Of a stretch of 25,395 nucleotides of DNA, positions 7,097 through 10,020 are shown in pieces; position 1 is the stretch's first letter, and every line of letters starts with the position of its first letter. This DNA is from a virus. A program made the translations under genes and the position numbers. The stretch spans positions 1-25,395 of the IMG/VR virus record IMGVR_UViG_3300023178_000243; one strand, given 5' to 3'. The notes below the pieces were generated by a model. The model made no database searches. It worked only from the letters and a program-made list of their open reading frames with translations, and had not been told where the DNA came from.

Positions 7097-7126
7097 ATAT
7101 TAAAATGATATCGTTGAATTAGTCAA
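7097..7126 (-). promoter_or_regulatory. Candidate promoter of the minus-strand early operon
   Basis: On the - strand TTGACT (7126-7121) is separated by 18 nt from TAATAT (7102-7097). The -35 box is close to consensus and the -10 box matches at four of six positions. It would start transcription near 7090, ahead of the palindromes and the 97-aa gene, and is the only reasonable candidate in the divergent region for that strand. Confidence 0.4.
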
Positions 7127-7219: not shown

Positions 7220-8239
7220 ATGGAACAATTAAAAAATGTAGTTGATTTTAAACTGCCGAAAAAAAAGAAAATAAAAGAGCAGCTCGAGCCAATGAAAGAT
7301 AATAGGAAATTTGTTGTCTTTCCTTTATGGGTGTTTCAAGAGTTGGAATTAACAGCCAAACAATTAAAGGTGCTGGGGTTATTGTGTTCGTACTGTAACA
7401 GGGCTGGTATTACATGGGTAAGCCATGCCAAGATAGGACAAGATTGTAATCCACCAGTAAGTAAGCAATCTATTCAGCTGTTTATGAAACGATTTAAAAA
7501 GCTTGGCATAATTGAAGTAATTGGAAAGCATAAGCAGTATAATAAAGGGGAAACAATAAGAGTTATATTCGACAAGGAATTAAGTCTTGATGATGTAATC
7601 AGTGCAACCAATGACGGACAAGAGGAAAACAAATTCCCTGAGATGATCAAGAAAGAAAGAGAAGAAGTTTTATCAGGTCCAAAAGTGGAGGACATTCCCA
7701 TTGATGATTCACACCAACCAATGGAAACATTCACAAAAGAAGAACTCGAAACAAATAGGAGAAGGATCAACCTATTAAAAAAAGCAGTAAGAACCGATAG
7801 CACCATCAGGAAAGGAGGACTCAATAAAATAGAAGTTGATCAACATTATATGGGATTATTAAAGGAGGACATCGAATTGAGTAAGAAAAAGAAAGAAACA
7901 CCGACAAGGTCAGACAACAAAAAGACTAAAAAGGCGACAAGGTCTAAGAGTTCACCGACAAGGTTTGAAGGTGTTACCGACAAGGTTCAAAGAGCTTGTC
8001 TAAACACAAGTAACATATTAACAATAGATATATTAATAGATATATATAATAAATACATTAATGGTTATCTTATGGTTGGACAAGTTCCGAAGATCACCGA
8101 AGAAGATATGAAAGCATCTGAAATGCTAATCAATGCTGGAATGACTGAGGAACAATTCAGGAAAACTATTGAAACAATAAAAGAATATAAACCTTTAGCA
8201 GATATTCTATTAGAAGTAACAAACAAATATAGCTTTTAA
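7220..8239 (+). CDS. Replication initiator-like winged-helix protein (lambda O-like layout)
   Basis: This 339-aa protein has an N-terminal winged-helix region (about 32-115): FPLWVFQELELTAKQLKVLG, then WVSHAKIGQDCNPPVSKQSI and a wing ending in GETIRVIF. This is like phage replisome organisers and O-type initiators. A charged linker (about 150-255) is Lys/Thr/Ser-rich, and a small helical C-terminal domain (about 262-335) would be the place to contact a helicase or loader. Four iterons and an AT-rich tract lie within the linker and C-terminal coding sequence. AAAGGGGG is 4 nt before the ATG. No helicase or polymerase is adjacent, so the host replisome is probably used. A plain transcription regulator is the alternative. 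Confidence 0.6.
   Translation: MEQLKNVVDFKLPKKKKIKEQLEPMKDNRKFVVFPLWVFQELELTAKQLKVLGLLCSYCNRAGITWVSHAKIGQDCNPPVSKQSIQLFMKRFKKLGIIEVIGKHKQYNKGETIRVIFDKELSLDDVISATNDGQEENKFPEMIKKEREEVLSGPKVEDIPIDDSHQPMETFTKEELETNRRRINLLKKAVRTDSTIRKGGLNKIEVDQHYMGLLKEDIELSKKKKETPTRSDNKKTKKATRSKSSPTRFEGVTDKVQRACLNTSNILTIDILIDIYNKYINGYLMVGQVPKITEEDMKASEMLINAGMTEEQFRKTIETIKEYKPLADILLEVTNKYSF
7901..7986 (+). repeat. Four in-gene iterons, consensus CCGACAAGGT
   Basis: CCGACAAGGT occurs at 7901, 7955 and 7977, and GCGACAAGGT at 7934, all in the same orientation. Start-to-start distances are 33, 21 and 22 bp, close to whole helical turns. The first three are read in one frame (Pro/Ala-Thr-Arg), but the fourth is in another frame (Thr-Asp-Lys-Val), so the conserved unit is DNA and not a peptide repeat. 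Confidence 0.75.
7901..8062. other. Candidate replication origin (iterons plus AT-rich unwinding tract)
   Basis: The iteron block (7901-7986) is followed after 24 bp by a 52-bp tract (8011-8062) that contains only three C or G pairs outside A and T runs and has TATATAT-like steps. Iterons inside the initiator gene next to an easily melted region repeat the layout of the lambdoid ori in gene O. The call is by analogy; no experimental signature can be seen. Confidence 0.55.
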
Positions 8240-8476
8240 ACTTATCAGAAGGGGTACAGGTTCAATTATCTTTTTAATTTAATAGAAAGGCTAAGGGGGT
8301 GGTGTTTGTGTAGCAAGAAGGGCATTTAAAAAGGTATAATGTCTGCGTATGTTTACATTTTATTTTATTTGTATGCGTGTTGGCTTTCAGTCGCAGAAAA
8401 AAAAAGCATATGTTTGGGGGGTGCCAGTCACCCTTATCGTATATGTCCACCACATAAATTTTTTCCAATAATCCCT
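8240..8476. other. Mostly non-coding interval with hairpin and a TATAAT box
   Basis: No convincing gene fills these ~240 bp. TATAAT occurs at 8335-8340 with only a poor -35. A G-run and the hairpin GGGTG-CCAGT-CACCC (8419-8433) with weaker outer pairing CATAT/ATATG (8408-8412 with 8441-8445) stand out as far more GC-rich than the surroundings. A 50-codon ORF (8339-8491) and a 32-codon ORF (from 8373) are open here. The region may encode a small RNA or be a protein-binding site. Confidence 0.35.
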
Positions 8477-8491
8477 TGTAAAGTAAAATGA
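8339..8491 (+). CDS. Doubtful 50-aa ORF with hydrophobic N-terminus
   Basis: ATG 8339 follows AAAAAGG by 4 nt and the frame ends with TGA at 8489. The product opens with a hydrophobic, signal-like stretch (VYILFYLYACWLSVAE) and carries four Cys residues. LYAC at 11-14 vaguely resembles a lipobox, but no basic N-terminus precedes it. The ATG overlaps a TATAAT hexamer, so promoter use would exclude this start. Composition differs from neighbouring genes. Chance ORF is quite possible. Confidence 0.2.
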   Translation: MSAYVYILFYLYACWLSVAEKKSICLGGASHPYRICPPHKFFPIIPCKVK

Positions 8492-8512
8492 TATCATATA
8501 TCATAGTGATAT
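8477..8512 (+). promoter_or_regulatory. Promoter with overlapping GATATC-type operators
   Basis: TTGTAA (8477-8482) and TATCAT (8499-8504) are 16 nt apart, a plausible sigma70 promoter for the 90-aa gene at 8540. Superimposed are two inverted repeats: ATGATATCAT (8488-8497) and ATATCA-TAG-TGATAT (8498-8512). Both cover the spacer and -10, where a repressor would block polymerase. The 11-mer AAAATGATATC (8485-8495) also occurs in the divergent control region at 7102-7112. Confidence 0.5.
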
Positions 8513-8539: not shown

Positions 8540-8812
8540 ATGGCATACGAACACAAAGCTGGATATGGTGCAGCATTTAAGAACGACAAGAAGGTAGAGG
8601 ATTGGCACTCTGATTACAGGGGTAAGATCATGTGTCACGACAACAAGTTGTATTATCTTGACATTACTGTAAAGACATCTAAGGCTGGTACGAAGTTCTT
8701 TTCTGTAAAGATAGGTAATGAGGTAGCTGATCAACCTAATGCAACAGTACATCCATCACATCAACCAGCACCGAAGAGTGTCGATGAGATGGCAGATGAC
8801 TTACCATTCTAA
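8540..8812 (+). CDS. Small protein with SSB-like acidic C-terminal tail, 90 aa
   Basis: The ATG at 8540 has GGGG 8 nt upstream. Residues 1-61 are compact and mixed alpha/beta with KTSKAGTKFFSVKIG. A disordered Pro/His/Gln linker follows (about 62-80), and the protein ends DEMADDLPF, very like the SSB C-terminal tip (acidic run then Pro-Phe) that docks host recombination and repair proteins. It is too short for a full OB-fold SSB of usual length (~150-180 aa), so it may be a minimal ssDNA-binding protein or a decoy of the SSB tail. It comes first after the 8477 promoter and is cut off by a terminator. Confidence 0.7.
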   Translation: MAYEHKAGYGAAFKNDKKVEDWHSDYRGKIMCHDNKLYYLDITVKTSKAGTKFFSVKIGNEVADQPNATVHPSHQPAPKSVDEMADDLPF

Positions 8813-8814
8813 TG

Positions 8815-8859
8815 TGTCGAAATAGAAACCCTATACTAGGGTTTTTCGATTTTTCGACA
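8815..8859 (+). terminator. Nested-stem intrinsic terminator before the AIPR gene
   Basis: AAACCCTA-TAC-TAGGGTTT (8826-8844) is a perfect 8-bp stem followed by a T-rich run. It is enclosed in a second perfect stem, TGTCGAAA (8815-8822) with TTTCGACA (8852-8859). It begins 2 nt after the stop of the 90-aa gene, separating that gene from the AIPR gene. The outer stem is unusual for a plain terminator and might regulate it. Confidence 0.75.
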
Positions 8860-8880
8860 TTTAACAAAAAGGGGAAAGAT

Positions 8881-10020
8881 ATGGAATTAAAACTAAAACA
8901 AGAAGAATTTATTTATACAATCAACGATGTTAGGAAAGTATCTGATACAACGAGCCAGACTGAAGCTAGGAATGGTTCTTCGCATTATACTGTCATAACA
9001 ACTGTTGAGAATGTTTTGGATATTAATATACAAGAAAACTTGAGGATTGGATATTCCAATCGTGAGTCAGCAAAAAAAGTAAATAGAGTGCACCGAGATA
9101 TTATCAGCTCTTTTAAAGATAATAAACAAAGGTTTATTCAAAAACATAGTGGCTTTACTGTGCTGTGTGACTCTTTGAAAGTAAATGGTACTGCTGTATT
9201 TTTGAGGAACGCATCGCTTGTCAATGGTGCTCAAACGCAACAGCTTATTAAAGATTATATAGAGGAAACTCCAGATGATATAGCAGCTCGAAAAACAGAA
9301 GTACGAGTTGAGCTCATCGTAGAAAAGAATGATCGACAACGCATTGATATTGCTATTTCCAGAAATAATTCAGTCAATGTACAGTCCATCTCTAAGTTAG
9401 GGAAACAAGGATACTTTGATTATTTAGAAGATGGTGTTAAAAAGATTTTAGGTAAAGATGCTGATATACAAAAGAGTGAAACGCAAAAAGCTATTTCAAC
9501 CGAGAAGCTCATTCAAGTTGTAAAAATTATGTGTCCTCATAAGCTGAATCCAAAGTTAAGAGATGCACCAGACCAAGCCTATCGTAATAGAAAATCTAAT
9601 GTTACTGAGTATCAGAAGATGGTAGATAATAATGGAAAAGACAATCCAGAGCTCTTTGAGTTTTATAACAGCTTTTGTGGTGTTGCTTGGCGAGAGTTCA
9701 AGAAATGGTCAACAATGCCAGAGTGGGTTAAGGTGCGAAACAGGCATGAAAATTATTATAAGCTGGGAAGCTATAACGAAAAGGATAATACTATAGAAAT
9801 TAAGTTAAGCATTGTATTACCACTTCTTTATGGATTGACACCTTTTATAAAGAAAATAAATAATACTTGGGATATTGTCTATCCAGAGAATTTTGATGCT
9901 AAAAAGTATATTAAGTATATTGCAAAATTGTACAAAGATAATGGATGTGACGCACAGGATTTTGGCAGAAACCAGCAAATGTACTTGAATTTATTTGTCT
10001 ACAATACAGATATGCTATGA
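8881..10020 (+). CDS. AIPR-family (abortive-infection-like) protein
   Basis: ATG 8881 with GGGG 6 nt upstream gives 379 aa; an in-frame extension to 8812 would run through the terminator and is rejected. Core AIPR signatures are visible: NLRIGYSNRESAKKVNRV (53-70), the F-x-HSGFTVLCDSL stretch (85-99, where NNGIT is usual), LVNGAQTQQLI (113-123, matching IVNGxQT) and RNNSVNVQSISKL (161-173, matching NxQ). Family members are usually 500-700 aa, so this is a compact form. The family is named from a lactococcal phage-resistance protein; its biochemical activity is not settled. The gene stands alone after a terminator and could serve superinfection exclusion or host interference. Confidence 0.75.
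   Translation: MELKLKQEEFIYTINDVRKVSDTTSQTEARNGSSHYTVITTVENVLDINIQENLRIGYSNRESAKKVNRVHRDIISSFKDNKQRFIQKHSGFTVLCDSLKVNGTAVFLRNASLVNGAQTQQLIKDYIEETPDDIAARKTEVRVELIVEKNDRQRIDIAISRNNSVNVQSISKLGKQGYFDYLEDGVKKILGKDADIQKSETQKAISTEKLIQVVKIMCPHKLNPKLRDAPDQAYRNRKSNVTEYQKMVDNNGKDNPELFEFYNSFCGVAWREFKKWSTMPEWVKVRNRHENYYKLGSYNEKDNTIEIKLSIVLPLLYGLTPFIKKINNTWDIVYPENFDAKKYIKYIAKLYKDNGCDAQDFGRNQQMYLNLFVYNTDML

Follow-up and report, generated by a model that had tools for sequence, protein, structure and literature searches.

The origins of iteron plasmids, served by Rep-type initiators, combine iterons with an adjoining AT-rich tract that is opened by a winged-helix initiator; as a rule they are located elsewhere than in the rep gene, and the Rep_3 proteins have two winged helices. 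Such origins and their DNA unwinding elements are covered, at least in part, by a published review (PMC4980987). In phage lambda, four iterons and an AT-rich tract are located in the middle of the O gene (PMC7466680; J02459 annotation). The closest cultured relative that we found for the virus described here is Methylophilales phage MEP301 (an OM43 phage), for which no DNA or RNA polymerase has been reported (PMC8024684). Its gene order is similar up to the terminase, and its gp55 (201 aa, annotated as hypothetical) is a shorter homologue of the initiator discussed below (42% identical over ~105-127 aa), from which the repeat array is absent. In the open-access literature we found no in-gene iteron origin described for this phage group.

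The window (the whole 25,395-bp stretch of viral DNA that was analysed) shares with the iteron plasmid origins the presence of iterons adjoining an AT-rich tract, and its layout is the same in kind as that of lambda ori within O. An earlier note on this DNA had proposed a lambda-O-style origin at 7901-8062, a reading which the architecture of the locus and the concerted change of its words in homologues support. We consider it probable (roughly 85%) that this segment is a replication origin residing inside its own initiator gene, and the comparative evidence for such an origin is strong. The features are as follows.

7220-8239, + strand: putative replication initiator gene, 339 aa, with the candidate origin inside (phrog_270, E 5e-9; phrog_391, O-like, E 0.003)
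7301-7573, + strand: codons of the predicted winged-helix DNA-binding domain, residues ~28-118 (AlphaFold2 pLDDT mostly ~90 or more)
7463-7504, + strand: codons of the predicted recognition helix, residues 82-95, within the winged-helix domain
7886-8011, + strand: codons of the predicted disordered linker, residues 223-264, containing the repeats (pLDDT below 50)
7901-7910, + strand: iteron 1, CCGACAAGGT, exact word match
7934-7943, + strand: iteron 2, GCGACAAGGT, exact word match
7955-7964, + strand: iteron 3, CCGACAAGGT, exact word match
7977-7986, + strand: iteron 4, CCGACAAGGT, in another reading frame, exact word match
7995-8000, - strand: candidate for a fifth box, in inverted orientation (core GACAAG on the - strand, CTTGTC on the + strand), a 6-bp match only
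8011-8062, no strand: AT-rich tract, candidate DNA unwinding element, 10% GC (counterpart in ten long relatives)
8024-8236, + strand: codons of the C-terminal helical domain, residues 269-339 (pLDDT about 90), with a presumed helicase-recruiting role
8540-8812, + strand: putative single-strand DNA binding protein, directly downstream of the initiator (phrog_18154, E 3e-4)

The initiator gene and its word array

The product of 7220-8239 is, by prediction, a replication initiator; it falls within the PHROG replication initiation families (E 5e-9 for phrog_270). Both phrog_270 (replication initiation protein) and phrog_391 were matched by 41 of 46 family members, and the winged-helix profile HTH_36 by 38 of the 46. 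The AlphaFold2 model places helices of lower confidence between the winged helix and the disordered stretch 223-264, and the iterons correspond to codons 228-256 inside this stretch. A PDB fold search returned only generic winged-helix matches, MarR-type regulators being the best, and gave no structural match for the C-terminal domain, which is conserved in most long relatives.

The word SCGACAAGGT occurs in four exact copies, all on the + strand, at 7901, 7934, 7955 and 7977, with the positions and steps (33, 21 and 22 bp) given in the earlier note; the steps correspond to 3.1, 2.0 and 2.1 helical turns. The note's further claim, that the last copy lies in a different reading frame, is borne out by the 339-aa ORF, in which the first three copies begin in frame 0 but the fourth in frame 1. 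No 9-mer of the 25,395-bp window other than CGACAAGGT, which all four exact copies share, reaches four copies within 200 bp. The partial inverted core CTTGTC at 7995-8000, absent from that note, would extend the layout to R-R-R-R-L (R, direct; L, inverted) at 33/21/22/16 bp.

The array is not an accident of codon usage, since none of 20,000 synonymous recodings of the ORF (keeping the protein and drawing on the phage's own codon usage) yielded four clustered copies of any four-base 9-mer, and 78 yielded three; the rare codons CCG, GCG and AGG are used within the words. The cluster statistic reached 10.6 for the initiator gene as compared to 7.4 for the lambda O gene, which was thus found by the same measure, and did not exceed 5.1 in 20 other genes of the window or 4.8 in 85 unrelated ORFs of related phages. 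No second array was found within the window.

The AT-rich tract proposed to follow the iterons is indeed present at 8011-8062, with 10% GC, and holds the lowest-GC 50-mer of the gene. The gene itself is AT-rich, and the GC content of the tract is only mildly lower than the encoded amino acids demand (p about 0.03; for the minimum 50-mer, 24%). On the other hand, the change of GC skew that might have been expected near 8 kb did not materialize: there is no sign change at this position. The absence of this signal is not diagnostic here, because the sign of the skew tracks gene orientation.

Conservation and change of the array in relatives

Homologues were collected from environmental virus contigs by a terminase search combined with an initiator-profile search, giving about 90 distinct sequences; the window and its relatives are fragments or of unknown completeness. 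A scan of IMG/VR with the window initiator as a single protein returned no relative, whereas an alignment-based scan succeeded. A pattern scan of IMG/VR for paired CGACAAGGT gave mostly protein-repeat or chance matches and no initiator homologue. The long-family profile matched nothing in the bacterial and archaeal genomes scanned, and hence gave no prophage or host evidence. Near-identical relatives (e.g. L122) stop short of the initiator gene, and the sole contig retrieved with the AIPR gene in search of close relatives begins at window position 8286, just past it; the nearest homologues retaining the gene are ~30% identical. The family comprises long forms (about 290-370 aa), which have a linker and in most cases share the C-terminal domain, and short ones of 140-254 aa.

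Clustered words beyond all shuffles were observed in all 30 full-length long homologues (at least 290 aa), and in 29 of these the top cluster falls in the linker; the linker boxes of L225 were seen on inspection. The short homologues (140-254 aa) have no comparable array within the gene. In three long clades the boxes are arranged as R-L-R-R-L at about +0, +12, +36, +48 and +60, which differs from the R-R-R-R-L of the window, although the relatives, too, end their arrays with an inverted box. The core word is GACAAC in most relatives, GTCAAC in L202 and L225, CACAAC in L212, L213 and L216, partly GACATC in L209 and L232, and GACAAG in the window. The copies have changed in concert, as each inverted box reads, in reverse complement, the word of its own clade. 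The homologues found, of which the nearest is about 30% identical, do not retain the exact word of the window, so the case for an origin rests on architecture and concerted change. The alignment of homologues called for in the earlier note shows the array and the AT-rich tract kept at the same position in the gene, even as the encoded peptide and the word itself change.

Two further observations concern individual relatives. A distant long homologue (L250:3577-3690) has a fifth, unrelated word in the same linker, with three copies of ATCAGAGAG and one of ATTAGAGAG in two frames. The CACAAC clade (L212:1113-1358 and other loci) retains the N-terminal domain and the array in combination with a different C-terminal domain, which suggests recombination at or just after the origin.

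In each of L202, L225, L250 and the window, copies of one word are found in two frames, and the boxes of the CACAAC clade read HTQP where those of the GACAAC clade, in a different frame, read IDN. Among 18 relatives, synonymous diversity is 0.37 in the N-terminal part, 0.33 in the linker before the array and 0.33 in the C-terminal part, and drops to 0.043 over the array (about an eightfold fall) and 0.082 over the AT tract. In ten relatives tested, whose genes have ~52% GC, the tract following the array has 21-29% GC, with a third-position GC of 0.14-0.32 versus 0.62-0.73 elsewhere, and is AT-rich beyond what its amino acids require (p<=0.0002). The relatives thus support the AT tract much more strongly than does the window alone. 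Concerted copies, differing frames, low synonymous diversity and the GC-poor tract together indicate that selection acts on the DNA, in agreement with the earlier proposal.

Likely recognition of the array and alternative readings

The comparison also shows co-variation between the word and the recognition helix. Members of the GACAAC class differ at 5% of the helix positions (SKQQVARAMKQLR and near variants) as compared to 11% of those in the remainder of the domain. When this class is set against the GTCAAC class, the values are 46% and 30%, and against the CACAAC class 74% and 42%. Where the word is shared, the helix is therefore better conserved than the remainder of the domain, and where the word has changed, it is less well conserved. 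This makes the initiator itself a likely binder of its own array; the co-variation is suggestive rather than decisive, because independent word changes are few (about five word classes, with the tree placing words in single clades).

Such co-variation would suit any specific binder, including one for which the array is an operator through which the initiator, or another phage regulator, controls its own gene and the early operon, with replication starting elsewhere. Most winged-helix proteins regulate transcription, and the best fold matches, as mentioned above, are of the MarR type. We nevertheless regard an operator as improbable: the array lies in the last third of the gene rather than at a promoter, and is the only one in the window; it is coupled to an AT-rich tract depleted in third-position GC in 10 out of 10 relatives tested; and the protein families matched are those of replication initiators.

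An even smaller chance is left to the possibility that the inverted boxes form RNA or single-strand hairpins (acting in mRNA regulation or primosome assembly) rather than protein-binding DNA. The arrays of the relatives do fold well as RNA (z of -4.4 to -5.3; -2.2 for the window). However, hairpins need complementarity and not one shared word, and the unpaired direct boxes share the clade-specific word with the paired ones. At most one copy in the window has an inverted partner, no Rfam match was obtained, and both concerted change and co-variation with the recognition helix point to protein-DNA contact. The least credible reading, that the selected entity is a repeated linker peptide (PTR in the window, where copies 1-3 encode [PA]TR in frame, and IDN..VV in relatives, where the GACAAC clade has repeated IDN and VV in frame), is largely refuted by the differing frames within one gene and between clades, the collapse of synonymous diversity, the predicted disorder of the linker and the failure of all 20,000 recodings to reproduce the array.

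Proposed initiation mode and its distribution in the family

In the proposed in-gene origin, the N-terminal winged-helix domain would bind the GACAAGGT iterons (four direct copies and perhaps a fifth, inverted core), forming a nucleoprotein complex which would melt the adjoining AT-rich tract. The C-terminal helical domain may then recruit the host replicative helicase, after which the host replisome would copy the phage genome. A host replisome is proposed because the searches turned up neither a DNA polymerase nor a helicase of the phage. Since the array sits in codons of a disordered linker under weak amino-acid constraint, the sites could evolve alongside the DNA-binding domain.

As in the lambda design, the initiator gene contains multiple iterons, placed after the codons of the DNA-binding domain and before those of the C-terminal domain, and the AT-rich tract adjoins them on the C-terminal side. 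Unlike in lambda, whose iterons are 18 bp long (10 bp for the window words), the boxes of the relatives are a mixture of direct and inverted ones. No counterpart of the lambda P gene was found, the virion genes are of the T7/pelagiphage type, and profiles of lambda P and DnaC/IstB revealed no helicase loader gene beside the initiator in the 15 records searched (including the window and MEP301; several are fragments), the position after the initiator being taken by the SSB-like gene rather than a loader. The Phage_rep_O profile (PF04492) was matched over its cut-off by 0 of the 15 records, with nothing in the window and a weak 14-bit match in the record of the relative L235. The comparison by hhalign with lambda O (as a single sequence) gave a probability below 1% for both the whole-family and the C-terminal profiles, although with a single sequence remote homology may have been missed. 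Thus, the initiator may well work like lambda O, but its assignment to the lambda O family finds no support, as PF04492 is not reached, hhalign found nothing and no P gene turned up. No Rep_3-type profile was among the family matches listed.

The absence of a visible polymerase, pointed out in the earlier note, holds for the PolA and PolB profiles, which, like those of DnaB, DnaC/IstB, lambda P and tyrosine integrase, gave no match in the 15 records; the T7 RNA polymerase profile gave none either, but nor did its control. The presence of RecT- and RecE-like genes, an SSB-like gene and a RusA-like resolvase makes it plausible that a lambda-like theta stage is followed by recombination-dependent concatemers.

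Other features were noted around these genes. Beside its replication genes, the phage encodes a protein of the AIPR (abortive infection) family (window 8812-10020), whose real start may be at ~8881, past a terminator-like hairpin at 8824-8846. Two exact occurrences of the palindrome-like ATGATATC[AG]T, at 7105-7114 and 8488-8497, are intergenic, one ahead of the initiator gene and the other ahead of the SSB-like gene, and may serve a phage regulator as operators.

Clusters of DnaA boxes (TGTGGATAA, at least 2 exact copies) were observed near the initiator gene in four short-initiator relatives (L266:3402-3457, L196:3862-3906, L156:305-357 and L144:1208-1251), those in L266 being spaced by 12-bp steps 83 bp after the gene. 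There were none in 30 long-initiator loci or in 1.5 Mb of other loci. In other short-initiator relatives, three-copy words (GCTCAACTGG; TTCCCACTT) are located directly downstream of the initiator gene (L155:548-619, L154:527-599, L184:2760-2849 and L281:3844-3933) and could be alternative origins.

A broader scenario can be put forward only tentatively, its parts taken jointly. An initiator family with no detectable relationship to lambda O may have evolved the in-gene iteron/AT-tract origin independently, in podoviruses that have neither a polymerase nor a helicase loader of their own. The origin would be a swappable module, residing in the gene with a co-evolving word in the long members and missing from it in the short ones, some of which have DnaA-box clusters nearby. 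This would imply a switch between self-initiated and host-DnaA-assisted replication.

Overall, from the architecture and concerted change we infer origin activity of 7901-8062, which provides a specific candidate origin for a set of environmental podoviruses that have no recognisable polymerase and whose replication mode we found undescribed. The results further point to a way of locating origins, through the collapse of synonymous-site diversity in the linker of an initiator gene. With at least four site words paired with four recognition helices, the family represents a natural experiment, and the protein-DNA code of an initiator could be read from metagenomes via such word/helix pairs.
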